DNA of 45,440 bases from Eubacteriales bacterium (GTDB lineage Bacteria; Bacillota; Clostridia; Christensenellales; Aristaeellaceae). Numbering within the stretch: the first letter of the stretch is position 1; every line of letters starts with the position of its first letter. The translations under genes and the position numbers were made by a program. The notes under the pieces were generated by a model. It did no database searches and had not been told where the DNA came from. It was given only the letters and a program-made list of their open reading frames with translations. The stretch covers positions 1-45,440 of the forward strand of contig JAQUWD010000030.1 of assembly GCA_028693055.1 (NCBI GenBank), in the 5' to 3' direction. Shown here in pieces: positions 319-13,926 of the stretch.

Positions 319-1551
319 CAAACGCATGAATGTGATACCCAGCCAAGAGGCGAGGATTCTGTTTTTTGAACTGGGTTACAGTTGGAGCACCATATCAATA
401 TACTTCTCTGCATTCATACAGATCATGAACCGTTTGGCTTTGAGGCTGACGTTTGTTTTGCTCATGTTCAACAGCTTTAGGATATGCAGCGATATTTTCC
501 GAATGATATTCAAGTTATATGCCGAATCTTTATCAACCGTCCGATTTGCATCCTCTTTGAAGGTAACGTCCAAATGCCAGTGATGGCTTTCGACCATCCA
601 GTGCTTACGGATTGCTTTGGCTATGAGGTCGATGTCCATAGGCAGACTACTGATGAAATATCTCTCTTCCGTTGTTGTTATGCCGTTTTTCGTCACGGTG
701 TTGCGTGTCATTGCAATGGATTGCAGCCCCGCCCATTTCTTACGCTGAGTAAGCCACTCTATATTTGTGGTCTGCCAATACTCCCGTTTTTCTATACCTC
801 CTCGCGCTTTCTCTGTAGTGCTTGTATATGCGCAGGCTGCCAAAAGCTCCACGTCCTGAAAATACAGGCTAATGTCCTCGTACATCCCGAACTGGTTTCC
901 CTTTAGCGCCAATACATAGTCCGCATGCTTTTTTCTTATTTGCTTCACGATTTCGGTTTGAGTTCCCATCGCATCCGTCGTTATGATATGCCCCTTGATG
1001 TTAAGTGCTTCAAGCAATTCTGGAATTGCGGTAATCTCATTGCTTTTTTCATCCACTCGGTTTTGACCCAAGCAGAATCCATCTTCATACACCGCACTTA
1101 CAATATGATTGGCCTTTTGCTTACTGGTGGCGGTTCCACGCTGCGTTTTACCGTCTATCGCAAGTATTCTACGTAGTTTTTCTCCCTCGCCTTTTGCAAG
1201 CATTTCATTCCATTGCGTTTGTATTTGCTGTAAAAACTCCGGAGATACCATTGCAAATACCCGTTGGATCGTATCATGAGATGGTATCCCGTTGGGCAGT
1301 GTTAGATACTTTCTCAGATACGCTTCGTGTTCTTTTGCAAAATAGTAGATTTCCATCCATTCATTCGCATTTGCCAAACTCGCAAAAAGCACGATGGCTA
1401 TGATGTCGCTCATCTTGTATTGTACTTTCTTTTCCTGCCTCCGATCTTCTACCGTGCACAGCTTCTTCAGTAACTCCAGCATGGTTTGTCCTCCCATCTT
1501 ATTATAGAGAGAATATACCATACTTGCTTCTCTTTTTCATTCATGCGTTTG
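319..1551 (-). mobile_element. ISAs1-family insertion sequence
   Basis: One transposase gene lies between a perfect 14-bp inverted repeat, CAAACGCATGAATG at 319-332 and its complement at 1538-1551. The span of 1,233 bp is typical for ISAs1 elements (about 1.2-1.3 kb). No direct target duplication is visible immediately outside the repeats (cttcaccc on the left, acgtgtct on the right). The copy may therefore be old or rearranged, or the true ends may lie slightly further out. The local AT-richness contrasts with the chromosomal genes to the right. Confidence 0.75.
376..1521 (-). CDS. ISAs1 family transposase
   Basis: A DDE transposase catalysing cut-and-paste movement of the element. The 381-residue protein has the usual family length and an intact frame. 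The N-terminal region with 'MLELLKKLCTVEDRRQEKK' and 'DIIAIVLFASLANANEW' matches the H-repeat/ISAs1 N-terminal domain. The catalytic domain shows 'AIDGKTQRGT' (Asp about 123), 'TTDAMGTQ' (Asp about 183) and 'HWMVESHHWHLDVTF' (Glu about 311). The annotated start at 1521 gives 13 extra residues; the Met at 1482 ('MLELLKK') is an equally good start and fits family N-termini. No frameshift is seen, so the gene could be active. Family assignment is confident; activity is not known. Confidence 0.9.
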   Translation of the reverse strand: MVYSLYNKMGGQTMLELLKKLCTVEDRRQEKKVQYKMSDIIAIVLFASLANANEWMEIYYFAKEHEAYLRKYLTLPNGIPSHDTIQRVFAMVSPEFLQQIQTQWNEMLAKGEGEKLRRILAIDGKTQRGTATSKQKANHIVSAVYEDGFCLGQNRVDEKSNEITAIPELLEALNIKGHIITTDAMGTQTEIVKQIRKKHADYVLALKGNQFGMYEDISLYFQDVELLAACAYTSTTEKARGGIEKREYWQTTNIEWLTQRKKWAGLQSIAMTRNTVTKNGITTTEERYFISSLPMDIDLIAKAIRKHWMVESHHWHLDVTFKEDANRTVDKDSAYNLNIIRKISLHILKLLNMSKTNVSLKAKRFMICMNAEKYIDMVLQL

Positions 1552-1669: not shown

Positions 1670-2518
1670 CTATTCGCTTTCCCGGCTGTACAAATCTCGC
1701 GTGGTCTGAGCCAGCATATCCGCATAATGGCCTTCCATAAAGGAGAGAACCGCCATATACACCGCGTCAAACACTGCGTGCTGCCCTACCCGGGATAATA
1801 GGCTTAATCGCAAATTGGTGCTTTCTTTTGAAAAGGTGCGAAGCAACACGTCAACATCCCGACAGAGCCGCTTATTAGGGAAGGAGGTCATAAGAATGGT
1901 GGGGGTTTTTTTGGCATGCACCACATGCAGCAGCTCGTGTATTTCCGGAGTTTGGCCGGAATGGCTGACACAGAAAAGTAGATCATCGGGGCCAAACTCG
2001 CTGACTAGCAGTAGCGCGTCGTGAATGTCTGAATGGTTCCACACGGACATGTTTAGCCGCACAAGCTTTCGGCTTGCGTCACGGCAGATTTCTGAGGAGG
2101 TGCACACACCGAAAAAGCAGATACGCCGGGCGCGGGTGATCAGCTTAGCGGCGGCCTCCACCATGGAAAGGTCGATGCAACGCATGGTAACGTCGATCAA
2201 ATCCCGCTCGGATTGCAAAGTGCCGCGAATCAGCTGCTCTAAATCCGATTTGCCATCCTGCCGGCCCGGGAAAAGGGTTTCATAAGAGCCCATCTGTTGG
2301 GCCATGCTGATTTTAAAATCAGTAAAGCCCTCAAAACCGATGGCACGGCAGAAGCGTACGACGGTAGGCTCGCTGACCCCCGCACCGTTTTTGACCTCGC
2401 GCATGGACATTCGTACCAAAACAGGCATGTTTTCCATGGCGAAATCCGCTACCTTGCGCTCGCTGGGAGACAAAGAGGAATATGCGTTCATGATAATGTC
2501 GTTGTAGTTCTGCTCCAT
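1670..2518 (-). CDS. RpiR/MurR-like transcriptional regulator
   Basis: A 282-residue regulator with an N-terminal RpiR-type helix-turn-helix (about residues 1-75, 'SLSPSERKVADF' and 'GVSEPTVVRFCRAIGFEGF') and a C-terminal SIS sugar-phosphate-binding domain (about 110-260, 'ARRICFFGVCTSSEICRD', 'DLLFCVSHSGQTPEI'). Proteins of this family sense phosphosugars; MurR responds to MurNAc-6-phosphate. It is divergent from the transporter and hydrolase operon that ends with murQ, which supports a MurR-like role controlling that operon. It has its own promoter (2551-2579). The specific inducer is inferred from the neighbourhood, not visible in the protein. The symbol is left blank because MurR orthology is not shown. 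Confidence 0.88.
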   Translation of the reverse strand: MEQNYNDIIMNAYSSLSPSERKVADFAMENMPVLVRMSMREVKNGAGVSEPTVVRFCRAIGFEGFTDFKISMAQQMGSYETLFPGRQDGKSDLEQLIRGTLQSERDLIDVTMRCIDLSMVEAAAKLITRARRICFFGVCTSSEICRDASRKLVRLNMSVWNHSDIHDALLLVSEFGPDDLLFCVSHSGQTPEIHELLHVVHAKKTPTILMTSFPNKRLCRDVDVLLRTFSKESTNLRLSLLSRVGQHAVFDAVYMAVLSFMEGHYADMLAQTTRDLYSRESE

Positions 2519-2550
2519 AATGTTCCCTCTTTCGGTATCCTGTTACCAAT

Positions 2551-2579
2551 ATTGTACAGAAAGATGAAGGAAAAGTCAA
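2551..2579 (-). promoter_or_regulatory. SigA-type promoter of the RpiR regulator
   Basis: On the minus strand a TTGACT -35 box (2574-2579) is followed by a 17-bp spacer and a TACAAT -10 box (2551-2556). It lies about 33 bp upstream of the regulator start and diverges from the transporter promoter at 2636-2665. Confidence 0.65.
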
Positions 2580-2635
2580 CTGTGGCTTGCAAAGAGAAAG
2601 ACCGCAAAAAGGGCTTCGATAATTAAGAAAAGTAC

Positions 2636-2665
2636 TTGACATCTGCCGTGGCGATGAGGTATTAT
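2636..2665 (+). promoter_or_regulatory. SigA-type promoter of the amino-sugar operon
   Basis: A perfect TTGACA -35 box (2636-2641) is followed by an 18-bp spacer and a TATTAT -10 box (2660-2665). The expected start site is near 2672, leaving a leader of about 50 nt before the permease gene. It faces away from the RpiR-type regulator. Confidence 0.7.
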
Positions 2666-2675
2666 AACTACAAGA

Positions 2676-2688
2676 TTATTACTAATAA
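2676..2688. promoter_or_regulatory. Candidate operator palindrome for the RpiR regulator
   Basis: A perfect 13-bp palindrome (TTATTA C TAATAA) sits just downstream of the predicted -10 box, where a repressor would block transcription. A second short palindrome, TGTA C TACA, follows at 2694-2702. The link to the RpiR regulator is an inference from position. Confidence 0.4.
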
Positions 2689-2721
2689 ATAGTTGTACTA
2701 CATTTAAGGGGTGATGGCGCG

Positions 2722-3660
2722 ATGACAGGCGCACAGATAAGTCTATGGAAACGGTTTTGTAAAAGCGCGCGGCAGTATTGGTGGTTCTATTTCATGCTGC
2801 TACCCGGATTGATTTATATTGTAGTTTTTCGGTACGCGCCTATGTATGGCATTACCATCGCGTTTAAAAATTACAGCGTATTCAAAGGCTTTGACGCATC
2901 GCCTTGGGTGGGCTTCGACAATTTTACCAAGCTGTTTGGCCGGGCTGCCTTTCAACGCGCCCTTTATAACAATGTGATCATTGGTGTGGAAAAGCTGATT
3001 TTTGGTTTTCCCTTACCTATTATTCTGTCACTGATGCTTAACGAGGTACGGAAAAACTCCTTGAAGCGTACCATTCAGACTGCGATTATCCTGCCCAACT
3101 TCATTTCTTGGATCGTTATCAACGGACTGCTTTTCGCTATGCTGGGTACCAACAACGGCGCGATCGTAGGCGTGATGCGCTTCTTTGGCTACGTTGGCGA
3201 GATTCCCAACTTGTTGGCGGATAAGGAACATTTCCGCGCGGTGATATTGCTGAGCTATCTATGGAAAAGCGGCGGCTATGCCACCATTATTTATTTGGCG
3301 GCGATCGCGGGCATTGACCAAAGCCTCTACGAGGCGGCGGAAATCGACGGTGCGGGACGGCTTCAGCAGCTGTGGCATATCACGCTTTCCTCCTTGCGCC
3401 CTACTATCGTTATGCTGCTGATTATGCGCGTGGGCGAGGTGATGAACGCGGGTTTCGACCAGATCTATGCCATATCCAACTATTTGGTGGTTTCTGTTGC
3501 GGATATCATTGAGACCTATGTGTATACGCTAGGCATGGAAAGCCGTAAGTTTAGTGAAGCCACGGCGGCCGGCTTGTTCATCAATGTTATCGGCTTGACG
3601 TTGGTGTTGATTACTAACCATATCGCCAAAAAGATTGATCCTGAAAGCGGCCTTATGTAA
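2722..3660 (+). CDS. Carbohydrate ABC transporter permease, LplB type
   Basis: A 312-residue integral membrane subunit of a CUT1-type sugar ABC importer. About six transmembrane helices are visible, beginning with 'WWFYFMLLPGLIYIVVF' after a short basic N-terminus. The cytoplasmic EAA loop that contacts the ATPase is present near residues 210-235 ('YEAAEIDGAGRLQQLWHI'). The N-terminal 'YWWFYFMLLPGLIYIVVFRY' pattern is typical of the LplB/YtcP pair rather than MalF. The start ATG has an AAGGGGTG ribosome binding site. It is the first gene of the operon and forms a heterodimer with the next permease. No ATPase gene is present in the operon, as usual for this family, which shares an MsmX-like ATPase encoded elsewhere. 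The substrate is inferred from downstream genes. Confidence 0.9.
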   Translation: MTGAQISLWKRFCKSARQYWWFYFMLLPGLIYIVVFRYAPMYGITIAFKNYSVFKGFDASPWVGFDNFTKLFGRAAFQRALYNNVIIGVEKLIFGFPLPIILSLMLNEVRKNSLKRTIQTAIILPNFISWIVINGLLFAMLGTNNGAIVGVMRFFGYVGEIPNLLADKEHFRAVILLSYLWKSGGYATIIYLAAIAGIDQSLYEAAEIDGAGRLQQLWHITLSSLRPTIVMLLIMRVGEVMNAGFDQIYAISNYLVVSVADIIETYVYTLGMESRKFSEATAAGLFINVIGLTLVLITNHIAKKIDPESGLM

Positions 3661-3679
3661 ATTAGAAAGGAGGAGCGCC

Positions 3680-4579
3680 ATGCTATTTGTCAGTCGCCGC
3701 AAGCGGATTCAAAGAAGCGTGCCCGAACGAGTGGGTAACGCTGTCATCGTTTTGATTCTTCTGCTGTTTGCCTTTTCCACTACCTATCCCTTTTGGCATG
3801 TGCTGATGTATTCCATCAGCGACTCCGGTCAGGCTATGTCTGGCGGATTGTTCTTTTTGCCCCGCGATCCTACCTTGGTAAGCTATGACGTGCTTTTTCG
3901 CACCAAGCAAATTTTTATCGCCTACGGCAATACCATTTGGAAAACGCTCATCGGGACGGTGCTCAGTCTGGCGTTAAGCGCTCTAACCGCCTTTCCGTTG
4001 GCTCATCGAAAGCTTCCCGGACGCAATCTGTTATCCATGGTATTCTTCTTTACCATGCTGTTTTCCGGGGGTATGATTCCTACCTATCTGGTGGTGCAGC
4101 AGCTGGGCATGATCGATACTCCGTGGGCTCTGATTTTACCGAATGTGCTAAGCGCCTATAACATGTTTATCATCCGCAACTATTTTCAACAGCTGCCCTC
4201 TTCGTTGGAGGAGAGCGCCTTTATCGACGGCGCAACCCCGCCGGTGGTGCTCTGGCGGATTGTTTTACCCATATCCGCGCCAATACTGGCGGCAAACGCT
4301 ATGTTCTACGGGGTGGGCAACTGGAACTCTTATCTGGACTGCATTTTGTATACCAATAGCAATACGCTGCAAACATTGCAGGTATATCTGCGCAACCTGA
4401 TATCTTCCGTTGGCTCCATGGATTCGATTGCAGGGGTTGGCGGCGCCACAGCTTCCCTTTCCGAGGAAACCATTAAAATGACGGCTATCTCCGTTTCTGT
4501 CATCCCCGTTTTAGTTGCCTACCCTTTTTTGCAGCGCTATTATGCGTCTGGCATTACGGTAGGCGCGGTTAAGGGCTAA
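3680..4579 (+). CDS. Carbohydrate ABC transporter permease, YtcP type
   Basis: The second membrane subunit of the importer, 299 residues from the ATG at 3680. That ATG is preferred over the upstream in-frame start at 3635 because AGAAAGGAGG lies at the right distance before it. About six transmembrane segments are visible, with the EAA-like loop near residues 180-205 ('LEESAFIDGATPPVVLW'). The C-terminus 'RYYASGITVGAVKG' is the characteristic ending of YtcP-type permeases. It follows the first permease by 19 bp and precedes the binding protein, the standard order for this transporter group. Confidence 0.9.
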   Translation: MLFVSRRKRIQRSVPERVGNAVIVLILLLFAFSTTYPFWHVLMYSISDSGQAMSGGLFFLPRDPTLVSYDVLFRTKQIFIAYGNTIWKTLIGTVLSLALSALTAFPLAHRKLPGRNLLSMVFFFTMLFSGGMIPTYLVVQQLGMIDTPWALILPNVLSAYNMFIIRNYFQQLPSSLEESAFIDGATPPVVLWRIVLPISAPILAANAMFYGVGNWNSYLDCILYTNSNTLQTLQVYLRNLISSVGSMDSIAGVGGATASLSEETIKMTAISVSVIPVLVAYPFLQRYYASGITVGAVKG

Positions 4580-4625
4580 TCCCGTTATTATGGCTGGAAG
4601 CCATCAAAGATAAAGGAGGTACCCC

Positions 4626-6110
4626 ATGAAAAAAACCCTATGTATGCTACTTGCGCTTCTCATGACCCTGTCTCTGGTTCCAACCTTCGCCACAGCTGAT
4701 GAATTGCCGGAAATTACTTGGATGATTACCGGATCGGGCACCACGTCTGATGAAAACAACATGGTGCTGCAAAAAATCGGTGAGGCAATCGGCGCAAAGG
4801 TCAACGTAATTCAAGTGGCTCCCGGCGACGAGGACGTCAAGCTGAACGCGCTGATCGCCGCCAACACGCTGCCGGATTTGTTCGTTGCGGATTTGGCGGA
4901 CGCGCAACAATTCATCAACGAGGGTATGCTTTGCCCGCTGGATGAATTTTTGAGCGATAACGGCTCTGAAATCTTGGCTCAGGTAGGCGAAAAGCTACCC
5001 AAGATGCCCGCTAACCAAATGGATGGGAGCATCTACATGATTCCCGGCGCCAGCGCGGATTTTATGGAAAACTTAAATGTACGAGTGGATTGGCTGAAAA
5101 AGCTAGGATTGGAAATGCCCACGGATTTGGATAGCCTGTATAACGTGCTGCATGCATTTACCTATGACGATCCTGACGGGAATGGGCAGAACGACACGGT
5201 GGGCATCGTTCTCACCATGGCGCAGACCAATCAGTGGGAAAACCTTTTCGGTGCTTTTGGTATTCCCTATAACAAGCCCTGCCAGCTGGAGGACGGAACG
5301 GTTACCTCCTACTTTAAGCATCCTCACTTCTTGGAATGCATCCAGTACCTGCGCAAGCTATATCAGGACGGCGTGATGGATCCCGATTTCGCCACCATGC
5401 CCGCGATGACCGCGCACGAGAAGCTTTGGAGCGGAGCCTGCGGCGTATATGGCTTCCGTGACGTGGGTGTAACCAACAACTGGTACCCGGGCCGCTATAC
5501 CTTTGAGTGCCCGGAGGATCCCTCCGAGATCTTCGGCTTTGCACAGATTACCGGTCCTTATGGAGATTGCGGCTCCGTGGCCCAGTACCCAAAGCTGACC
5601 ACCGGCATGGTGGTAGCCTCCACCTGCAAGAATCCTGACGCAGTGGTTCGGCTGATCAATTACCTGTTCACCGAGGAAGGCGACAATCTGACTTATCTTG
5701 GCGTTGAAGACGTTATGTATCGCTGGATCGATAAGGAAGCTGGCAAATACGAGCGCCTGAACGAATATGTGGACGATGCCGTCCATCGCGCCAACGGCGG
5801 CTTCACCTATTGGATGAATATGCCAGAGGATAACGCCCAGCTGCGCACAATGAACGCGCTTACGCAACAGGGACAGGCCGAGCAACAGCTTCATGCCATC
5901 GATTATCCCTATATCACCAGCACTATCGAGGCCGAAACCGAGTACGGCACGCTGCTGGATCAAATTGTTAAGGAAGCCACCGCTCAGCTGATTGTGACCA
6001 AGGGCGATGTGGAAGCCGAGTACAAGGAGTTCGTTACTCGTTGGGAAAACGAAGGCGGCTTGGAATACGAAGCCGAGGCTACTGCCGCCTACGCCGCTCA
6101 AGTTAAATAA
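4626..6110 (+). CDS. Extracellular solute-binding protein of the ABC importer
   Basis: A 494-residue CUT1 family (LplA/YtcQ-like) substrate-binding protein. It starts with a clear signal peptide, 'MKKTLCMLLALLMTLSLV' followed by 'PTFATADELPE'. The cleavage site appears to be a signal peptidase I type (ATA-DEL). No lipobox cysteine follows the hydrophobic core, whereas Gram-positive binding proteins are normally lipid-anchored. The mature part has 'ADLADAQQFINEGMLCPLDE' and 'DPDGNGQNDTVGI', typical of the family. The start has an AAAGGAGG site. It lies 46 bp after the second permease. The substrate is probably an amino-sugar-containing oligosaccharide, judged only from the downstream genes. 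Confidence 0.88.
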   Translation: MKKTLCMLLALLMTLSLVPTFATADELPEITWMITGSGTTSDENNMVLQKIGEAIGAKVNVIQVAPGDEDVKLNALIAANTLPDLFVADLADAQQFINEGMLCPLDEFLSDNGSEILAQVGEKLPKMPANQMDGSIYMIPGASADFMENLNVRVDWLKKLGLEMPTDLDSLYNVLHAFTYDDPDGNGQNDTVGIVLTMAQTNQWENLFGAFGIPYNKPCQLEDGTVTSYFKHPHFLECIQYLRKLYQDGVMDPDFATMPAMTAHEKLWSGACGVYGFRDVGVTNNWYPGRYTFECPEDPSEIFGFAQITGPYGDCGSVAQYPKLTTGMVVASTCKNPDAVVRLINYLFTEEGDNLTYLGVEDVMYRWIDKEAGKYERLNEYVDDAVHRANGGFTYWMNMPEDNAQLRTMNALTQQGQAEQQLHAIDYPYITSTIEAETEYGTLLDQIVKEATAQLIVTKGDVEAEYKEFVTRWENEGGLEYEAEATAAYAAQVK

Positions 6111-6278
6111 TACTAAGCTTGTATTCAAACAGCTAAAGCTTGGGGATGCTTTTGACCCATCGGCTGTCAATCTTGAGATAGCGCTGCTATTCCTGCGGTT
6201 TCCTTCCTTGGCGCTGAACCAAAATCACCCCAAGCTGTCCACCGTTTCACTGAGATTAGGATAAGCACACTCCAAGCT

Positions 6279-6305
6279 CCGGGAAAGCGCCCGTCGCTTT
6301 CCCGG
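6279..6305. other. Strong hairpin between binding protein and hydrolase genes
   Basis: A perfect 11-bp GC-rich stem (CCGGGAAAGCG, loop CCCGT, CGCTTTCCCGG) lies in the 236-bp gap after the binding-protein gene. No T tract follows, so it is not a classic intrinsic terminator. It may be an mRNA-stabilising or processing hairpin that keeps transporter mRNA more abundant than hydrolase mRNA. The rest of the gap (6111-6278) shows no gene or clear promoter. Confidence 0.5.
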
Positions 6306-6346
6306 AATCCATTCGTCGGCTGAACCATTAAGGAGGAAAAGTACTC

Positions 6347-9163
6347 ATGGAAGCATCGTTGCGTCTGAGCGGGTCACGCACTGTTTTATTCCGAGTGGAA
6401 GAAAAAGAGCATCAACTGGTCGTGCTGTTGAATCACAACCGCCCCATACGTCTGGCAGCCCGCGATGCCGTCTGTCTGGACGAGTTTTCCCCATTGGCGG
6501 GAAGCAAATGGATGTTCCATGAAAAAACACAGTTGAAAGAGCTTCAAGACGCCGTGGAGCTGATTACCAGACCCGTTGATCAGGACACTGGCGCACCCAC
6601 CCCCGGCTTCTTGGCGATTTATCGTTTCACGGCCGAGGAAGGGGCACTTTGCGTTCAAACGGAGCTATACTGCCCGGAGACATTGCTGGCCGACTCGTTG
6701 TCTTGGCTTCACTTTGAGGTTGAGAAGGATGCGTTTGACCGCTTAGAGCTGAGGGAACCTCGGTATGCCCTGCCCATCGAACAGGTGAATCACAGCATGC
6801 GCGCTGGAGAGCTTACCTTGAGCGGCGTTGCGGGAACCCTTACTTTTTTTGATTGCGGACAGGCGCAGTTTGAGCCTGCCAACGGTTATAGCGAAAAATG
6901 TGAGCCGGCTAGAGCTTTTGGTCAAGCCGCCCTTTGCAGGCAATTGAGGCCTGCTATGTTTCAAGGGGAAAGGGCTCTTCATATGGCGCTGTCCTTCGAG
7001 GAAGGGAAGAAAACACAGGCAGTACGCTCATCCACAGCGAAGAAGGAAGCCTTGGGGCAACAGATTCGGTTAGCTTCTGGGTCGCTTGGCTTGAGCTTTT
7101 TGGTCCGGGAGGATGGTGTTACCCCGCTAGGAATACATCTGAGCGATTTTACCCCGGTAGAGAATTTTTCTTTGCTGCCCTTGATGAAGCTGACTTTGCA
7201 GCGGCTGGCTGATGGCGAGCTTTCTACGGTAACCACGGAGCGTGGCTGGAAAAAGGTCAAGGCTTGTCAAGAACCGGGGCTGCTGTCATTTTATATGGAA
7301 GAACCGGAGGACGTGCCGGGACTGGCGCTGCGAGTGGAGGCGGCGGCTGACGGTAAGGGTCGTATTACTTGGCGTTCGGAGGTTTTAAACAACAATACCG
7401 CATATTCCGTGTTGTATGCCACCTATCCGGGCGTTAGTTGCATGGGAGAAAAAGAAACGTTATTGACTCCCGCCTTTTGCGGTAGATTGGAGAAAAATCC
7501 TTTTCAAAACGACTTTCACGAAAGCAATCCATACCCGGCAGGCTGTGCGTACAGCCTTCCCCTATATGCGTTTTACGATCCTGCCCGCAAGAAGAAAAAC
7601 GGTCTATATATCGCCGTTCACGACGATACGGGCGCGCTGAAGGATATGCGGGTCGACTGCTTTGACTGCGGTCAGGCAGCGGTGGAGTTCCGCTATGGCG
7701 CGATTAACATGGGTCGTCCTGCCAATGCCTTTGCGCTGACGGGGCGCATGATCCTTCAGGTGTTTGACGGCGACTGGTATGATGCGGCTGATATTTATCG
7801 CGAGTTTGTTCAAGCACAAGCGCCTTGGCTTCCGCGGAAGGGAAGGCCGGATTCTCCCCAATGGATGCAGGATACTCCCTTGTATTTGATGGATTGGATG
7901 CCAAATGATAATCCGGACGCCGACCCTGTGCCTATCTCCATTCGTCCAGCTGTGGAGCCTCCTCGGGACGCGTGGGTACAAAAGCCCATACGGTTGGCAG
8001 ATCGTTTGCACAACGTGCCGATTGGCTACCATCTATATAACTGGCACTGGATTCCCTTCAACAACGATTATCCCCATTATTTTCCCGTCAAAACCGGTCT
8101 GCGGGAAGGCGTGGATGAGTTAAAAAGGCACAATGTGCGTACTATGCCCTATATCAACGGCCGCTTATGGGACACGCTGGACAACCGGGGAGAATGCGGC
8201 GAGTTTGCACAGGCTAAGGCGGATGCGACCAAAAGCTGGAATGGATCGCTATTTCTGGAAAGCTATGCCTCTCACGAACCGGACGGACAGCTATGCCGGT
8301 TGGCGGCTATGTGCCCCTCGTCAGCCCGTTGGCGCAACACGCTGGATCGGGTTACGAGACGATTGTTTGATGAATATGGTATGAGCGCTGTTTACATTGA
8401 TCAGATTGCGGCTGCTCAGCCTAACCTTTGTGCGGATGAGACCCATTTGCATATGCCCGGAAATGGCGGCTGGTGGAGAGAAAGCTATCGGTTGCTCATG
8501 CGGCAGCTGCGTGATCATAAGCCAAAGGATTGCGGCTTTACCTCGGAGGCGACTGCTGAGACCTACTGCGACCAGTTTGACGGCTTTTTAAGCTGGACGT
8601 GGATTACAGCCACCTTGGCGCCAGTATTCGTCCGCATATACGCTGGATATATTGCCATGCTTGGGCGCAATACCAATGGATATAAAAAGCAGGATGTGGA
8701 TTATTTCCGCTATCATGTAGCTCAATCGGTGCTGTGGGGTCAGCAGATCGGCTGGATCAACGCCGATGTAGTGGATGATGAGGAAAAAATGGCGTTCTTG
8801 GAGCCCATGGTCGCCATGCGTTATCAATTGCGGCAGTACTTCACTTGCGGCGATTTGCTACGTTCTCCGAAAATTGAGGGAAAAATTCCCCAGTATGTGA
8901 CCGATACGGGCATGGGCATGCCTGAAATGTTTGTGGGGGATCAATATCAAGCATCGGCTTGGCGGTTGAACAATCAGGCGCTGGTTATGGCTGTTAATCT
9001 AACAGATCGTCCGGCCCAGTACACGATGATGCTCCAGGGCTTTACTCCGGGAGCGGAGGCTGCAAAGATCGCGGGTCAGGGAAGCTTTTGTCTTTCGGGG
9101 CAAACCATGCAGGTAACATTGGAGCCTCACAGCGCCATTGCTGTGGAGCTGAGAATCCTATAG
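6347..9163 (+). CDS. DUF6259-type putative glycoside hydrolase
   Basis: A large 938-residue protein without signal peptide or membrane segments, so probably cytoplasmic. Residues about 1-480 look like beta-rich carbohydrate-handling domains. Residues about 500-850 form a TIM-barrel-like region with 'IGYHLYNWHWIPFNNDYPHY', 'MPYINGRLWDT', 'SAVYIDQIAAAQP' and 'GFTSEATAETY', resembling the DUF6259 domain of putative clan-D-like glycosidases. The Asp of 'YIDQ' and the Glu of 'TSEA' are plausible catalytic acids, but this is inference. The C-terminal part (about 870-938) is a small beta domain. The AAGGAGG site before the ATG at 6347 is strong. It sits between the transporter and amino-sugar genes, so it may trim an imported glycan. 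The exact activity is unknown. Confidence 0.72.
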   Translation: MEASLRLSGSRTVLFRVEEKEHQLVVLLNHNRPIRLAARDAVCLDEFSPLAGSKWMFHEKTQLKELQDAVELITRPVDQDTGAPTPGFLAIYRFTAEEGALCVQTELYCPETLLADSLSWLHFEVEKDAFDRLELREPRYALPIEQVNHSMRAGELTLSGVAGTLTFFDCGQAQFEPANGYSEKCEPARAFGQAALCRQLRPAMFQGERALHMALSFEEGKKTQAVRSSTAKKEALGQQIRLASGSLGLSFLVREDGVTPLGIHLSDFTPVENFSLLPLMKLTLQRLADGELSTVTTERGWKKVKACQEPGLLSFYMEEPEDVPGLALRVEAAADGKGRITWRSEVLNNNTAYSVLYATYPGVSCMGEKETLLTPAFCGRLEKNPFQNDFHESNPYPAGCAYSLPLYAFYDPARKKKNGLYIAVHDDTGALKDMRVDCFDCGQAAVEFRYGAINMGRPANAFALTGRMILQVFDGDWYDAADIYREFVQAQAPWLPRKGRPDSPQWMQDTPLYLMDWMPNDNPDADPVPISIRPAVEPPRDAWVQKPIRLADRLHNVPIGYHLYNWHWIPFNNDYPHYFPVKTGLREGVDELKRHNVRTMPYINGRLWDTLDNRGECGEFAQAKADATKSWNGSLFLESYASHEPDGQLCRLAAMCPSSARWRNTLDRVTRRLFDEYGMSAVYIDQIAAAQPNLCADETHLHMPGNGGWWRESYRLLMRQLRDHKPKDCGFTSEATAETYCDQFDGFLSWTWITATLAPVFVRIYAGYIAMLGRNTNGYKKQDVDYFRYHVAQSVLWGQQIGWINADVVDDEEKMAFLEPMVAMRYQLRQYFTCGDLLRSPKIEGKIPQYVTDTGMGMPEMFVGDQYQASAWRLNNQALVMAVNLTDRPAQYTMMLQGFTPGAEAAKIAGQGSFCLSGQTMQVTLEPHSAIAVELRIL

Positions 9164-9175
9164 GAGGCTGAAAGC

Positions 9176-10882
9176 ATGCTGCTGGCGGAACATGGACATA
9201 CGGATTACCGAATCGTGATGGCTTATGGAGCTCATGAAACTATTAAGTATGCCTGCACGGAGTTAAGCCAATTCTTGGAGCGTATAACGGGCGCGTCCGT
9301 TCCGATATGTACTGACCAGCAGCCTTCTTACGAACGGAGTATTTTGGTGGGGGAAAGCCGCGCTTTGCGCGGCTTGAATCCACCCTTGTGCCTTGATGAG
9401 CTGGGCGAGGAGGGCTTTCGTCTTACCACCGTTGGGTCTAGACTGGTGCTTGCCGGTAAGACGCCACGGGGTACGCTGTACGCCGTTTACGCCTTTCTAG
9501 AGCGGCTGGGCTGCCGATGGTTCGCGACAAACGAGGAACGGATTCCCTTCGTTCCAAAGCTGGAAATTGAAGAACTGGATTTGATAGACCGACCTGCCTT
9601 TGAAAGCAGGGAGGCCTATTGGAGAGAAGCCTTTGACGGCGATTTCGCCGTACGCAACCGTTTGAACTCCAATATGGCGGACATCAGTGTGCGGCAAGGT
9701 GGACGGATGAAGTTTCATCGGTTTCACCATACCTTTTATGAGCTGGTGCCGCCCATGCAATATTTTCACAGTCATCCGGAGTACTTCGCTCTATCGGGGG
9801 GTGAGCGCCGCTCGGCGGGGGCGCAGCTTTGTCTGACAAACCCGGAAGTACTACGGCTTACCGTTGAGCGAGTAAGACAATGGATTCGAGACAATCCCGA
9901 TTGCCGGGTTTTTTCCATTGCCCAGAACGACTGCGGCGGATACTGCGAATGCGAGCAATGCAGCGAGTTGGCCCGGAAGGAAGGGAGCCAGTCCGGCCCC
10001 ATTATAGCGTTTGTTAATCAGGTTGCCCAAGCCATTGCATCGGAATTTCCGGACAAACTGCTGCATACGTTCGCTTATCAATATTCCCGTACCGCGCCCC
10101 GCACGTTGCGACCCCATAATCAGGTGATTGTGCGTCTGTGTTCCATTGAATGTGATTTTTCCCATCCCCTTGAAAAGGGAGCATCTCCCAGCTTCTTGCG
10201 GGATTTACGGGAGTGGAGCCGCATCTGTGAACGCTTGTATGTGTGGGATTATACGACTAATTTTGCCAATTATCTTATGCCCTTCGTTCATCTGCATACC
10301 ATGAGAGAGAACCTTCGCTTATACCAAAGCATGAGCGTAAAGGGCGTACTGGAGCAGGGCGCGTTTTCGCAAGGCGGAGGCGCGCATTTGGCAGAGCTGA
10401 TGGCCTATATCCAAGCCAAGCTGCTATGGAATCCTGAACAAAACGTGGAATCGTTGGTTGAGGAGTTTTGCCGCGGATTTTATGGCTTGGCGGCGTCGCC
10501 CTATGTGCTTTCGTATATATGGCTTATGGAAGAAGCCATGACGGCCTATCCGCTGGATATTTATCAAAGGCCCGACGCGCCGTGGGTGACGGAGCCATTG
10601 CTAGAACGGGCTGACAATATTCTTTCCGAGGGTACTTTGGCGGCAAAGGGAACCCGGTTTGAGGAGCGAATCGAAAAGCTGCGGCTGGGGATTACCCAGT
10701 TGATGCTAAGTCGCATGCCGAAGGATACGCCCGGTAGGGGAATGCTGGTTCGGCGCTTTGGCTGGCAATTGCGACGTTATGGAATCAGCGAGCTGCATGA
10801 ACGGCGCTTTTTGGAGGAATCACTGGAGCATTTGGAAGACCCAAAACAGGAGATGAACGGACGTGCCGATTACCAAATGTGA
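9176..10882 (+). CDS. DUF4838 protein, GH163-like putative glycosidase
   Basis: A 568-residue protein with no signal peptide. The N-terminal region (about 1-130: 'ACTELSQFLERITGASVPI', 'GTLYAVYAFLERLGCRWFA') is the alpha/beta domain commonly preceding hexosaminidase and alpha-glucuronidase catalytic domains. The central region (about 150-430: 'HHTFYELVPP', 'HPEYFALSGGERRS', 'QLCLTNPEVL', 'IAQNDCGGYCECEQC') matches the DUF4838 family. From memory, that family includes enzymes classified as GH163 endo-beta-N-acetylglucosaminidases. This fits its position directly before an amino-sugar kinase and murQ. It starts 12 bp after the DUF6259 gene, with the ribosome binding site AGGAGG overlapping that gene's stop. 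The reaction and substrate are inferred. Confidence 0.75.
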   Translation: MLLAEHGHTDYRIVMAYGAHETIKYACTELSQFLERITGASVPICTDQQPSYERSILVGESRALRGLNPPLCLDELGEEGFRLTTVGSRLVLAGKTPRGTLYAVYAFLERLGCRWFATNEERIPFVPKLEIEELDLIDRPAFESREAYWREAFDGDFAVRNRLNSNMADISVRQGGRMKFHRFHHTFYELVPPMQYFHSHPEYFALSGGERRSAGAQLCLTNPEVLRLTVERVRQWIRDNPDCRVFSIAQNDCGGYCECEQCSELARKEGSQSGPIIAFVNQVAQAIASEFPDKLLHTFAYQYSRTAPRTLRPHNQVIVRLCSIECDFSHPLEKGASPSFLRDLREWSRICERLYVWDYTTNFANYLMPFVHLHTMRENLRLYQSMSVKGVLEQGAFSQGGGAHLAELMAYIQAKLLWNPEQNVESLVEEFCRGFYGLAASPYVLSYIWLMEEAMTAYPLDIYQRPDAPWVTEPLLERADNILSEGTLAAKGTRFEERIEKLRLGITQLMLSRMPKDTPGRGMLVRRFGWQLRRYGISELHERRFLEESLEHLEDPKQEMNGRADYQM

Positions 10883-11846
10883 ACCGTTTTTTATTGGACT
10901 GGATGGCGGCGGAACCAAAACAGACGCGGTGCTTTTCACCTCCGAGGGAACGGTGCTACGCCGGGTGCGTGGACGCGCCACGAACCCAATCAGCTGCGCC
11001 GAGCATGCGCCAGCCCATCTTCGTGCTTGCTTAGAGGCATTGCTGAAGGATTTTGGCGGCCTTTGCCGCCCCCTATCCGGAGTGTTCGCCGGGATTGCTG
11101 GAGGCGGACTGACGGATCATCAGCGAAGTATTCACGAGCAGCTTATAACGCTTATGCCAAACGCAGCCTCAGTGGAGAATGGGTCGGACGCGTTAAACGA
11201 GCTAACCGCTTTGCTTGGGCTACAGGATGGCGTGGTAGCCATCGCGGGTACTGGCTCCTGCGTCTATGCTCGCCGGGAAGGAAAAATGATACGTGCTGGC
11301 GGCTGGGGTTATTTGTTTGAGGATGCGTGCAGTGCTTTTGAGTTAGGCAGGCAAGCCCTTTTGCTGGCTATGGAAGAGACGGACGGCCGGGGGGCTGCAA
11401 CGGCGGTTACGCCTTATATCGAAAAGGAGCTTGGCGGAACCGTCGCCGATAAACTATCGGAGCTCTATGCATCCGGTATGGCGCGCATTGCCGGACTGGC
11501 TCCCTGCCTGACCCGGGCTGCGGTAGAGGGAGACGAAGCAGCTCAAAGAGTGGTCAATCTACAGGCCCGTTTGCTGGTAAGGTGCATTTGCGCAGCCGGA
11601 GACAAGCTGGACAGGGGAACCCCCTACTCCGTTGTTCTGACCGGCAGCTTATGGCAAGCCGTACCGATGCTACGCGAGATCGTACAGAGCGAGCTGGGTT
11701 CCAGCCATCCCCTGCTTTCCTCAGCCCTTCCTCCGGTTTACGGCGCGGCGCGGCATGCGGTGATGCAATGTGGACAGCAAGCCGACGAAGTATTTCGTAG
11801 CACTTTTTCCAAAACATTGAAAGGAACCGAAGCCATATGTATATAG
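10863..11846 (+). CDS. BadF/BadG-type N-acetylglucosamine/MurNAc kinase
   Basis: A 327-residue ASKHA-fold kinase of the BadF/BadG/BcrA/BcrD family, which includes GlcNAc kinases and clostridial MurK (phosphorylates both MurNAc and GlcNAc). The phosphate-binding motif 'GLDGGGTKTDAVLF' lies near residues 12-25 and 'VAIAGTGSCVYAR' near 125-137. 'AGGWGYLFEDACSAFELG' is also typical of sugar kinases of this group. The start is a GTG at 10863 with AGGAG upstream; it overlaps the end of the DUF4838 gene by 20 bp, implying translational coupling. The next gene encodes MurQ, so a MurK-like role giving MurNAc-6-phosphate is likely. Which amino sugar it prefers cannot be read from the sequence. Confidence 0.85.
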   Translation: MPITKCEPFFIGLDGGGTKTDAVLFTSEGTVLRRVRGRATNPISCAEHAPAHLRACLEALLKDFGGLCRPLSGVFAGIAGGGLTDHQRSIHEQLITLMPNAASVENGSDALNELTALLGLQDGVVAIAGTGSCVYARREGKMIRAGGWGYLFEDACSAFELGRQALLLAMEETDGRGAATAVTPYIEKELGGTVADKLSELYASGMARIAGLAPCLTRAAVEGDEAAQRVVNLQARLLVRCICAAGDKLDRGTPYSVVLTGSLWQAVPMLREIVQSELGSSHPLLSSALPPVYGAARHAVMQCGQQADEVFRSTFSKTLKGTEAICI

Positions 11847-12772
11847 CGCAGGATTCCCAAAAGGTCGCGCTGCTCCATACCGAACAACGGAACCCCCGTA
11901 GCGTTGGAATCGCACAGATGGAAACGCTCGGAATACTGCAAACCATCAACAAGGAGGATCGCACTGTGGCGGACGCGGTCACTTTGGCCTTACCTAGCGT
12001 TGCTAAGGCGGTGGAATTGATTGTTCCGCGAGCACAGGCGGGTGGAAGACTGGTATATGTAGGGGCCGGAACCAGCGGTCGTCTTGGCTATATGGACGCC
12101 GCCGAATGCTACCCTACCTATGGGAGCGACTTGGTGCAATGCGTGATGGCTGGGGGGCGGGACGCCGTATTCCATGCCGTGGAAGCTGAAGAGGACTCGG
12201 CAGGTGCTGCGAAGCGGGATTTGGAGGCCTTTGGCCTTACGGCTGGCGATGTGGTTTTTGCAGTCGCTGCCAGCGGGCGCACGCCTTACTGCGTGGGAGC
12301 GCTGATATATGCCAGACAGTTAGGCGCCGCTAGTATATCTATGGCTTGCAATCCCCATGCGGAGATGAGCGGTTATGCCGATGTAGCGATCGAGGTGGAC
12401 ACGGGGGCGGAAACGATTATGGGCTCCACGCGTATGAAGGCGGGTACGGCAGAGAAAATGGTAATGAACATGGTCTCCACCACGTTGATGATCCGGCTGG
12501 GGCGTACATGGGACAATCTGATGATTCAGATGACCGCGCATAACAGCAAGTTAAACAACCGAACCCTTCGACTCTTGGAAGAAGCGATTGGTTGGGAGGA
12601 TGACGAGCATGCAGCGCAAATATTAGAAAAAGCAGACGGTCGCTTGGAATTAGCAGTGCTGTCCGCAATAACAGGGCGCACTCCTGATGACTGTTCCGAT
12701 ATGCTTTGCCAGACCAAGGGCAATTTATTAGAGGCAGCGCGAAGACTAGGCTACATGCCGCTAACCAACTAA
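11837..12772 (+). CDS. murQ: N-acetylmuramic acid 6-phosphate etherase
   Basis: Cleaves the lactyl ether of MurNAc-6-phosphate to give GlcNAc-6-phosphate and D-lactate in the cytoplasm. The 311-residue protein shows the family N-terminus 'TEQRNPRSVGI', the SIS-domain motif 'VGAGTSGRLGYMDAAECYPT' with the catalytic Glu near residue 90, and 'HAVEAEEDSAG' carrying the second acidic residue near 116. 'GSTRMKAGTAEKMVMNM' is also a strong MurQ signature. It overlaps the kinase gene by 10 bp, is preceded by AAAGGA, and is the last gene of the operon. Together with the kinase and RpiR regulator it supports a muropeptide or MurNAc salvage function. Confidence 0.94.
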   Translation: MYIAQDSQKVALLHTEQRNPRSVGIAQMETLGILQTINKEDRTVADAVTLALPSVAKAVELIVPRAQAGGRLVYVGAGTSGRLGYMDAAECYPTYGSDLVQCVMAGGRDAVFHAVEAEEDSAGAAKRDLEAFGLTAGDVVFAVAASGRTPYCVGALIYARQLGAASISMACNPHAEMSGYADVAIEVDTGAETIMGSTRMKAGTAEKMVMNMVSTTLMIRLGRTWDNLMIQMTAHNSKLNNRTLRLLEEAIGWEDDEHAAQILEKADGRLELAVLSAITGRTPDDCSDMLCQTKGNLLEAARRLGYMPLTN

Positions 12773-12793
12773 CGGGCGCTCATTTTATCATCA

Positions 12794-12820
12794 ATTTTTT
12801 AATGAAAATCATTAAAAAAT
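12794..12820. promoter_or_regulatory. AT-rich perfect palindrome upstream of the DUF2975 promoter
   Basis: Two perfect 12-bp arms (ATTTTTTAATGA and its complement) flank a 3-nt loop and end 2 bp before the -35 box of the next promoter. There is no GC in the upper stem and no 3' T tract, so it is a weak terminator for murQ. It is better placed as an operator, perhaps for the small HTH regulator of the downstream operon (autoregulation). Confidence 0.4.
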
Positions 12821-12822
12821 AG

Positions 12823-12851
12823 TTGACAAACATCATTTATAGAGGTATACT
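12823..12851 (+). promoter_or_regulatory. SigA-type promoter of the DUF2975/HTH operon
   Basis: TTGACA (12823-12828), a 17-bp spacer and TATACT (12846-12851) form a near-consensus promoter about 50 bp before the ATG at 12903. Confidence 0.75.
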
Positions 12852-12902
12852 CCCTTCTGTCATCAAAACAGATTGGCTGTCATCAGCCAGGGAGGAAATA
12901 CC

Positions 12903-13385
12903 ATGAACCAAACCGCTTCTAAAATCGTAAGTCAAAGCAAAACGATCACCATTCTCGCTACGGTGGCTCGGATTATTCTATATGTTGCTGCGGGGATTAC
13001 TGTTGTATCGCTGGTTGGCAGCTATCTGAACATTACAGGCCCCGTGCTTGTCCTATTTGGCAAGCCTGTCTATATGATTGACCTCTCCGAGGGGATGACC
13101 ATGGAGGCATGGCGCGTGCAGCTGGTGGAAGCCCTAGTGCAGATTGGTCTGGCACAAGCCCTGCTTTACCTAACCGATAGCCTGTTTAAGCGCATTGGTT
13201 CCAGCACCACGCCGTTTACCGCCGAGATCGTAAAGAAAATGAAATCCTTAGGCGTTCTGCTGGGGCTTGTTATCGCCATCGATAACGGCTATCTAGGCGT
13301 TGTGGTCGGCTTTGTCATTTATGCCTTTGCCATGATCTTTGAATATGGCGGCGAACTGCAAAAGCAAGTGGACGAAACGCTGTGA
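12903..13385 (+). CDS. DUF2975 family membrane protein
   Basis: A 160-residue protein with about four transmembrane segments ('IARIILYVAAGITVVSLV'-like near 20-45, 'LVEALVQIGLAQALLYL' near 75-95, 'LGVLLGLVIAIDNGYLG' near 115-135 and a last one near 135-152). DUF2975 proteins of Firmicutes are typically cotranscribed with a YozG-like HTH regulator, as here. The ATG at 12903 is preceded by GGGAGGAAATACC, which excludes the upstream TTG at 12873. Its function is not established. Confidence 0.8.
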   Translation: MNQTASKIVSQSKTITILATVARIILYVAAGITVVSLVGSYLNITGPVLVLFGKPVYMIDLSEGMTMEAWRVQLVEALVQIGLAQALLYLTDSLFKRIGSSTTPFTAEIVKKMKSLGVLLGLVIAIDNGYLGVVVGFVIYAFAMIFEYGGELQKQVDETL

Positions 13386-13395
13386 GGTGCTCGAT

Positions 13396-13611
13396 ATGGC
13401 GATAATCCTCAGACTGGATCGGGTGATGGCCGACCGTAAAATGAGCCTGAACGAGCTAAGCGAAAAGGTGGGCATTGCCAATGTGAATCTGTCCCGGATT
13501 AAGACCGGTAAGATTTCCGCCATTCGCTTTTCCACCCTCAATGCCATGTGCGACGCGCTGCATTGCCAGCCCGGAGAGCTGCTGGAATTTCAGCCGGACG
13601 AAATGGAGTAA
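13396..13611 (+). CDS. Small Cro/C1-type HTH regulator (YozG-like)
   Basis: A 71-residue DNA-binding protein consisting almost only of a helix-turn-helix domain ('MSLNELSEKVGIANVNLSRI' followed by 'KTGKISAIRFSTLNAMCDAL'). It ends with 'CQPGELLEFQPDE', the usual tail of the YozG-like partners of DUF2975 proteins. It begins 10 bp after the membrane protein gene, with GAGGTG as ribosome binding site. It probably regulates its own operon, and the AT-rich palindrome at 12794-12820 is a candidate site. Confidence 0.85.
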   Translation: MAIILRLDRVMADRKMSLNELSEKVGIANVNLSRIKTGKISAIRFSTLNAMCDALHCQPGELLEFQPDEME

Positions 13612-13619
13612 GTAGAAAC

Positions 13620-13639
13620 GAAGCGGCAAAAGCCGCTTC
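13620..13639. repeat. Hairpin repeat, left copy flanking the interspersed repeat
   Basis: GAAGCGGC, loop AAAA, GCCGCTTC: an 8-bp stem just after the HTH gene. An identical 20-nt copy is at 13802-13821, on the other side of the interspersed repeat. One of them is probably the original transcription terminator of the DUF2975 operon, duplicated when the repeat arrived. Confidence 0.7.
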
Positions 13640-13640
13640 A

Positions 13641-13795
13641 GACTGTCGAAAACTCCCTTAAGAGGGTGTCGGGGGAGCCCGCAGGCTACCCTGACTATAT
13701 TCGTATCGACCGGCTTTGCCGGTCGGGCGGGCAGTTTGCGGCAAAGCCGCAAACATTACCCGTAACTGGCGAAAAAGCGCGTAGCGCTTTTTTGA
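13641..13795 (+). repeat. Interspersed structured repeat, copy 1
   Basis: About 155 bp that recur in inverted orientation at 20461-20611, roughly four-fifths identical by eye in the core. It contains internal hairpins (GACCGGC TTT GCCGGTC at about 13708-13724, and TTTGCGGC AAA GCCGCAAA just after). It ends in a terminator-like hairpin AAAAAGCGC GTA GCGCTTTTTT (13772-13793). A 45-codon frame (GTG 13666 to TGA 13803) reads through it with 'IRIDRLCRSGGQ' and 'LPVT' conserved in the second copy. It may be a non-autonomous mobile element, a structured RNA or a small coding repeat; this cannot be decided here. Confidence 0.75.
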
Positions 13796-13801
13796 CACGC
13801 T

Positions 13802-13821
13802 GAAGCGGCAAAAGCCGCTTC
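13802..13821. repeat. Hairpin repeat, right copy
   Basis: The same 20-nt hairpin as at 13620-13639, followed by GTCCCTTTT, so this copy can act as an intrinsic terminator. Together the two copies form a direct (and, being palindromic, also inverted) repeat around the interspersed element. Confidence 0.7.
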
Positions 13822-13864
13822 GTCCCTTTTCCACAATTTCAGCCTATGCATTTACCAGCGCTTG

Positions 13865-13873
13865 TGCTATAAT
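13865..13873 (+). promoter_or_regulatory. Extended -10 promoter of the capD-like/hprK operon
   Basis: TGCTATAAT is a perfect extended -10 element (TG-N-TATAAT). No good -35 box is visible, as expected for extended -10 promoters. A palindrome, TATATGTG - 7 nt - CACATATA (13879-13901), lies at the expected start site and could be an operator. The start codon is about 50 bp downstream. Confidence 0.55.
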
Positions 13874-13926
13874 TGTATTATATGTGATTTTCACACATAT
13901 ATGTTGAGGAATAGGGAGGAAGTCTT

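Follow-up and report, generated by a model that had tools for sequence, protein, structure and literature searches.

The region 1670-12772 of the 45,440-nucleotide contig studied here (the window; contig C49 of genome G000, a 3.8-Mb draft in 116 contigs) carries an operon that joins a divergent MurQ to a BadF-type kinase, a sugar importer and two large, little-known enzymes with DUF6259 and DUF4838 domains. The gene order, the linkage in other genomes, the subfamily structure and the conserved and changed residues set out below reveal a real system, conserved though rare: an accessory subsystem around a variant MurQ, for amino-sugar salvage with MurQ chemistry. We regard it as somewhat probable that this subsystem conducts a cytoplasmic salvage of oligosaccharides ending in a kinase step and a MurQ-type elimination, and that it does so in parallel with the murein MurQ-MurK pair that the cell also has. 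Loci, genomes and contigs are cited by their L, G and C numbers. The inventory and layout proposed in a first-pass annotation of this DNA, a regulator gene diverging from seven genes that run in one direction, are borne out by matches to domain models, and all eight genes lie where that annotation had placed them:

1670..2518, minus strand: RpiR-family regulator with HTH_6 (E 1.7e-19) and SIS (E 2.1e-12) domains
2519..2721: divergent intergenic region with promoter-like sites and a 13-bp palindrome
2722..3660, plus strand: LplB-type ATP-binding cassette (ABC) permease (domain search, tree)
3680..4579, plus strand: YtcP-type ABC permease (domain search); the first codon of the reading frame is a TTG (3635), but translation more likely starts from the ATG at 3680
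4626..6110, plus strand: extracellular solute-binding protein (SBP_bac_1, E 7.4e-13)
6347..9163, plus strand: long-type DUF6259 protein of 938 residues, a presumed cytoplasmic glycoside hydrolase (E 1.4e-69)
9176..10882, plus strand: DUF4838 protein (GH163 family) of 568 residues with a GH67-type N-terminal domain (E 9.6e-103)
10863..11846, plus strand: BadF/NagK-type sugar kinase, similar to kinases of N-acetylmuramic acid (MurNAc) and N-acetylglucosamine (GlcNAc) (E 1.9e-26)
11837..12772, plus strand: divergent MurQ paralogue, a SIS-fold 6-phosphosugar etherase/lyase (NF003915, E 1.6e-105)

The operon is closely spaced, with 12 nucleotides between the DUF6259 and DUF4838 genes and overlaps between the DUF4838 and kinase genes and between the kinase and MurQ genes; the single large gap, of 236 nucleotides, separates the binding-protein gene from the DUF6259 gene. 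No ATPase gene for the importer occurs within the operon.

The association of these genes was assessed in 308 genomes of the same family, in which we counted 115 MurQ places, 48 DUF4838 places (from 49 rows, two fragments of one gene having been merged) and 5 long and 58 shorter DUF6259 places (the latter being rows down to about 62 bits, with weaker rows dropped). Of the 48 DUF4838 places, 5 have a MurQ within 12 kb (0.38 expected); the same is true of 3 of the 5 long DUF6259 places (about 0.07 expected) and of none of the 58 short ones (about 0.41 expected). The expectation treats placement as uniform over genomes of 2.9 Mb, and the window is itself the starting point of the count, the figures being 4 of 47 for DUF4838 and 2 of 4 for long DUF6259 when it is left out. 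The MurQ-linked DUF4838 genes are those of the window, G001, G140, G178 and G148, and the window, G001 and G140 also hold the MurQ-linked long DUF6259 genes.

Nine other long-DUF6259 loci were collected, seven by a genome-collection scan with the DUF6259 protein, which needs exact short peptide patterns and so misses distant relatives, and two by family search (short contigs, G139 and G171). MurQ and a BadF kinase are present in the fetched stretch at five of the nine (L014, L015, L016, L018 and L020), and DUF4838 at three (L014, L015 and L020). The linkage of the DUF6259 and DUF4838 genes to murQ, on which the first-pass annotation had staked its proposal, therefore recurs with several MurQ lineages, albeit not at all loci. 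The window's order (LplB, YtcP, binding protein, DUF6259, DUF4838, kinase, MurQ) recurs in L014, whose content is that of a contig of the same-family genome G001. In L020 the kinase and MurQ are followed by LplB, DUF6259, YtcP, the binding protein, a protein of a 679-residue type (in two frames) and DUF4838, while L016 and L018 both combine a kinase fused to a helix-turn-helix (HTH) domain with MurQ, DUF6259 and a GNAT protein. In L015 an operon of DUF6259, the 679-residue protein, DUF4838, a kinase and a GH38 enzyme comes after a cluster encoding RpiR, MurQ, a kinase, NanE and a 660-residue protein.

The MurQ of the window scores above the equivalog cut-off (TIGR00274, 315.4 bits against 302), and its E90, E119 and D120, which we take to be the catalytic acids corresponding to Glu83, Glu114 and Asp115 as numbered in Escherichia coli, show no variation among seven aligned rows. 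In a tree built from 37 hand-picked rows (34 of the 115 family places plus L016, L018 and L020) it groups with L014, L060 and L065 (support 99/96), outside both ordinary clades. A second variant clade unites L016, L018, L063 and L064 (100/99) and a third L015 and L062 (100/99), with L020 standing alone. A further MurQ over the cut-off is encoded in the window's genome on contig C4, with the gene of a MurK-type kinase after it, and this canonical MurQ belongs to a 14-row clade (100/99) together with murein-type loci. Given this canonical pair on another contig, the operon of the window is not the cell's only MurQ route; that its MurQ might be the murein MurQ of the genome had been considered, and was dropped once the pair was found.

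A scan of all alignment columns singled out position 231 as the only one that is more than 85% conserved in ordinary MurQs and different in every variant row, the division into variant and ordinary having been drawn after the linkage and the tree were seen. Of 26 ordinary rows 25 have Asp here, and none of the 11 variant rows does: the window has Gln, L014, L060 and L065 have Cys, L020 and the four rows with HTH-kinases have Asn, and L015 and L062 have Tyr. At position 102, where 25 of the 26 ordinary rows have Gly, all four members of the window's clade have Cys, while the HTH-kinase rows retain Gly. These replacements suggest a changed binding pocket in the variant MurQ. The variant group can now be set apart from ordinary MurQ, although annotation models give both one name.

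The other components show a comparable division into subfamilies. The DUF4838 protein matches PF16126 at 344.2 bits (cut-off 26.6) and has an N-terminal Glyco_hydro_67N domain (E 3.6e-10), and its matches to solved structures are weak ones to alpha-glucuronidases. In a tree of 19 DUF4838 rows, those of variant-MurQ loci fall in one six-row clade (98/97), five of whose six members are linked to a variant MurQ; the DUF4838 of L061 falls in a sister clade. In the tree of LplB-type permeases (18 rows, one of which, L056, is on a very long branch), the variant-locus rows (window, L014, L020, L062 and L063) form a group of six with L055, at a support of 94/88 that is just under the tool's star; the LplB proteins of three canonical MurQ loci make up a separate group (99/97) and that of L061, likewise a canonical MurQ locus, a third.

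These data also bear on whether the genes are chance neighbours, or share a mobile history, rather than forming one pathway. An ISAs1-family transposase gene 148 bp past the 3' end of the regulator gene would agree with this, as would the rare and patchy distribution of long DUF6259, which is seen in 5 of the 308 family genomes and, among 396 genomes of the order and likewise among 398 of the phylum, in the window's own genome alone. We nonetheless consider it very improbable, as the linkage exceeds expectation with differing MurQ lineages and gene orders, the importer, DUF4838 and MurQ subfamilies largely agree, and the genes overlap in one operon.

The first-pass description of the kinase as MurK-like is a fair one: its best solved match is the N-acetylmuramic acid/N-acetylglucosamine kinase 8zo3 (E 1.9e-22), besides a BcrAD_BadFG domain (E 1.9e-26) and a match to human NagK (E 1.9e-14). 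In PMC10465942, room for the lactyl group in MurK is tied to T94 and to residues at 133-135 that are not bulky or charged. The window kinase, by our own alignment, has S108 before D109 and a GGWG loop segment, features compatible with those criteria and with a pocket that may leave room for a 3-O substituent such as lactyl. The S108-type and GGW features are also found in ordinary GlcNAc kinases such as human NagK.

BadF-type kinases with an N-terminal helix-turn-helix occur next to MurQ in L016 (2710-3837), L018 (7847-8980), L063 (8655-9806, minus strand) and L064 (7461-8567), the extra domain being recognized by domain search for L016 and by alignment for the other three; they are possible kinase-regulators.

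The DUF6259 match (PF19773) in the largest protein of the operon covers the full 300-residue domain (E 1.4e-69). The long proteins to which it belongs (938-1077 residues) form their own subgroup, distinct from the shorter proteins (mostly 650-790 residues), and no further Pfam family is common to more than one of ten long members. All 37 distinct DUF6259 regions have D685, and 32 of the 33 that extend over position 734 have E734, making these residues a candidate catalytic pair. Furthermore, a DUF6259 profile aligns around D685 with a pair of GH123_N-annotated proteins (probability 78.7%); this alignment, along with the conservation of D685 and E734, is what a barrel-type glycoside hydrolase would show. 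Searches for a solved structure returned one chance-level match with the single sequence and none with a profile of the ten long members, and no characterized member was found in the literature or structure searches. A literature search, with most subscription papers outside its reach, found no paper with DUF6259, PF19773 or PF16126, a single one with DUF4838, and none joining GH163 with MurQ or with the full name of the etherase.

In the pathway that we infer, covering the substrate, the order of the reactions, the location of the enzymes in the cell and the activity of each, an oligosaccharide containing an amino sugar would be taken up by the binding protein and the two permeases, of LplB and YtcP type, together with an ATPase whose gene lies outside the operon. 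The long DUF6259 and GH163-type DUF4838 enzymes would trim it in the cytosol, freeing a 3-O-substituted N-acetylhexosamine (HexNAc); trimming is placed after import because neither large enzyme has a signal sequence visible by eye, whereas the binding protein does have one (likewise judged by eye). The BadF-type kinase could then phosphorylate the 3-O-substituted HexNAc at O6, and the divergent MurQ might take off the 3-O substituent by C2-C3 elimination and hydration, yielding HexNAc-6-phosphate for general amino-sugar metabolism, with the RpiR protein perhaps sensing a phosphosugar and controlling the operon. As plain GlcNAc would be converted directly to GlcNAc-6-phosphate, a kinase and a MurQ are jointly needed only for a sugar with a removable 3-O group, of which MurNAc is the known example. 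We lean slightly towards D-lactyl as the substituent, that is, MurNAc from a non-murein or peptide-free source, and the changed MurQ may leave room for another group. The first-pass suggestion of a larger amino-sugar glycan trimmed inside the cell accords with this pathway and draws its support from gene context. DUF6259 and the MurQ-linked branch of GH163, both little known, thereby gain a testable place in amino-sugar metabolism.

A further-reaching version, which we rate as rather unlikely, makes the variant MurQ a phosphosugar lyase that would split a non-lactyl, possibly 3-O-glycosyl, group off a 6-phosphorylated HexNAc, fed by DUF6259 as a new family of glycoside hydrolases in the cytoplasm. 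If so, imported oligosaccharides would be finished by phosphorylation and beta-elimination in place of hydrolysis, and MurQ chemistry would extend beyond murein. More generally, should the variant act on anything other than MurNAc-6-phosphate, cell-wall-recycling chemistry would have found a second use on other glycans, and the annotation of some genomes as murein recyclers would call for re-examination.

MurNAc catabolic loci with a MurQ etherase and a MurK kinase are present in Clostridium acetobutylicum and Bacillus subtilis, and the murein-salvage locus of B. subtilis includes nagZ, amiE and namZ. Such a locus is also described for Tannerella forsythia. In its BadF-type MurNAc/GlcNAc-kinase-like kinase, MurQ, RpiR-type regulator and sugar importer the window resembles these loci; it differs from them in having two large little-known enzymes and no NagZ-like or amidase-like gene, in the subfamilies of its MurQ, importer and DUF4838, and in the canonical murQ-murK pair elsewhere in its genome. 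The first-pass view that known MurNAc salvage amounts to murQ and murK with simple transport proved too narrow, given that 10 of 26 ordinary MurQ loci sampled in this family (L061, L080, L081, L082, L083, L086, L088, L090, L091 and L099) also have NagZ-like or amidase-like genes in the stretch fetched, with weak amidase-like matches only in L093 and L098; these labels derive from two L061 proteins, which match Pfam Glyco_hydro_3 and Beta-lactamase, and from BLAST similarity to them. At the 11 variant loci (window, L014, L015, L016, L018, L020, L060, L062, L063, L064 and L065) no such gene was seen in the fetched stretches, several of which are on short contigs. The remaining 16 of the 26 ordinary loci are also without one in the fetched stretch, so that it is not a strict requirement.

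The operon could be a variant of murein salvage, in which GlcNAc-MurNAc saccharides or muropeptides are imported, DUF4838 and DUF6259 act in the roles of NagZ and NamZ, and the kinase and MurQ convert MurNAc to GlcNAc-6-phosphate. The MurQ family and the nearest solved kinase are murein-sugar enzymes, and in the genomes of L015, L016 and L018 the MurQ near DUF6259 is the only one found. DUF4838 can belong to murein salvage, since that of L061 (G148), from a sister clade, sits in a full murein-type cluster with canonical MurQ-MurK, a NagZ-like GH3 enzyme, an amidase-like protein of beta-lactamase fold and an LplB/YtcP importer. We hold this explanation to be possible but doubtful in view of the distribution of NagZ-like and amidase-like genes (0 of 11 variant against 10 of 26 ordinary loci, with the qualifications just given), the differing subfamilies of MurQ, importer and DUF4838, the canonical pair already in the genome and the replacement of Asp231 in every variant row. 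A muropeptide substrate, one of those put forward in the first-pass annotation, is for the same reasons of subfamily and separate murQ-murK pair a weaker version of the proposal.

Several observations weigh against the cytoplasmic salvage pathway that we prefer. No MurQ was present in the fetched stretch at four of the nine other long-DUF6259 loci (L017, L019, L052 and L053). The L017 genome is without any MurQ and the L019 genome has one on another contig, while L052 and L053 are on short contigs of 9.2 kb and 4.4 kb; in G171 a kinase-MurQ pair of the window's clade occurs on a separate 3.5-kb contig (L065). L019 moreover has an amidase-like gene near DUF6259, 40% identical to that of L061. 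L016 and L018 are without DUF4838 and without an importer, L060 combines DUF4838, kinase and MurQ without DUF6259, and the MurQ of L015 belongs to the adjacent cluster, which has an RpiR, a kinase and a nanE of its own. The DUF4838 of L072 belongs to the linked clade, yet no MurQ was seen in the L072 genome, and the LplB group of six includes L055, a short-DUF6259 locus at which no MurQ was seen. The kinase of the window has Cys156 in place of the Gly of 12 other aligned kinases. Two ordinary MurQs, in L095 and L097, likewise have a kinase beside them that is closer to the window kinase than to MurK, and thus the kinase type is not specific. Finally, after the second DUF4838/short-DUF6259 locus of the window's own genome comes a NagZ-like GH3 gene on the other strand (L011), which also counts in favour of murein salvage.

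That second locus, on contig C113, has a DUF4838 gene beside a short DUF6259 gene, a GNAT gene and an LplB/YtcP/binding-protein set (L010 11754-19999 and L011 3-2377), and no MurQ near it in the fetched stretch. Two further short DUF6259 genes occur in the same genome. Related GNAT genes are found near DUF4838 or short DUF6259 in L054, L057, L058 and L061, and near MurQ in L097.

DUF4838 is equated with GH163 in Table 3 of PMC9870897, and one Bacteroides thetaiotaomicron GH163 enzyme cleaves GlcNAc-beta1,2-Man of complex N-glycans, according to PMC10154615. The window protein is likened to that enzyme through the family listing, with PF16126 far above cut-off; it differs in being clostridial, in having no signal sequence seen by eye and in lying in an operon with a kinase and a MurQ. 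The operon might thus serve the salvage of host N-glycans or mucin-type glycans, with the MurQ-like protein being no etherase and acting, for example, as a GlcNAc-6-phosphate dehydratase or in a regulatory role as does NagS of Streptomyces. NagS is presented in PMC12680351 as a GlcNAc-6-phosphate dehydratase and a MurQ-related SIS protein, found in Streptomycetaceae only and in a separate clade. Hence a MurQ-related SIS protein can act on GlcNAc-6-phosphate, and a GH38 alpha-mannosidase gene lies in the L015 operon and another upstream in L018. Salvage of this kind is nevertheless unlikely in our estimation: neither the window nor the stretches fetched for L014, L016 and L020 showed a GH38 relative, the window DUF4838 has no visible signal sequence, and the window MurQ passes the MurQ equivalog cut-off, whereas the clade described for NagS is a separate one confined to Streptomycetaceae. 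The N-glycan substrate of the first-pass annotation accordingly has the GH163 biochemistry of PMC10154615 and the GH38 gene of L015 on its side, and would leave the MurQ unexplained. For the variant MurQ of the salvage pathway proposed here, NagS is a parallel: it is likewise a MurQ-related SIS protein and has itself moved to another 6-phospho-amino-sugar reaction, which makes a changed substrate of the window MurQ plausible, even though the cut-off and the description of NagS set the two proteins apart.

The regulator had been called RpiR/MurR-like. Its HTH_6 and SIS domains support the RpiR part, and the MurR part is loose: among NCBIfam models five, with HexR first, outscore the model of the HTH-type regulator MurR, and neither that model nor the five reach their cut-offs. 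RpiR relatives at 40% identity adjoin the L015 and L060 operons. The divergent intergenic region has promoter-like sites in both directions (2636-2665, plus strand; 2579-2551, minus strand), the scan count in the region being 10 against a shuffle mean of 10.9, that is, without excess. A 13-bp palindrome, TTATTACTAATAA, at 2676-2688 is a candidate operator only, and no operator common to the window, L060 and L015 was recognized by eye. Within the operon, the 236-nucleotide gap before the DUF6259 gene folds as a whole better than 199 of 200 shuffled sequences and contains a perfect 12-bp hairpin at 6278-6306 (TCCGGGAAAGCG/CGCTTTCCCGGA), which might contribute to unequal mRNA levels along the operon. 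A search at the gathering threshold assigned no Rfam family to the window.

Some further features of the neighbourhoods deserve mention. A family of 679-688-residue proteins (L015 12810-14849, plus strand; L063 715-2781, minus strand; L020 15665-17120, in two frames) occurs near variant MurQ, kinase and importer or DUF6259; it has no Pfam match over cut-off and no solved relative, and is possibly another new glycosidase family. The clusters of RpiR, MurQ, kinase and NanE in L015 (3290-8689) and L062 (3913-14887), each with a 660-residue protein (no Pfam match for that of L015) and the latter also with a GH42-type enzyme and an importer, represent another MurQ variant, tied to N-acetylmannosamine-6-phosphate epimerase. 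L017, on a contig binned as Kiritimatiellae, has a DUF6259 and GNAT pair without MurQ (9944-13931) that is close to the pair in L016 and L018, both on Clostridia contigs from deer gut, its GNAT being 81% identical to that of L016; this reflects either transfer or mis-binning. A lipobox cysteine, which would be expected for a clostridial ABC importer, was not seen by eye in the binding proteins of the window (4626-6110) and of L010 (13740-15386). The ISAs1-family transposase gene downstream of the regulator (376-1521, minus strand; NF033564, E 2.2e-99) sits in a stretch of lower G+C (43-45%). At the other end of the operon, an A+T-rich inverted repeat with 12-bp arms (12794-12820) immediately precedes a promoter-like site of the next gene at 12823-12851.

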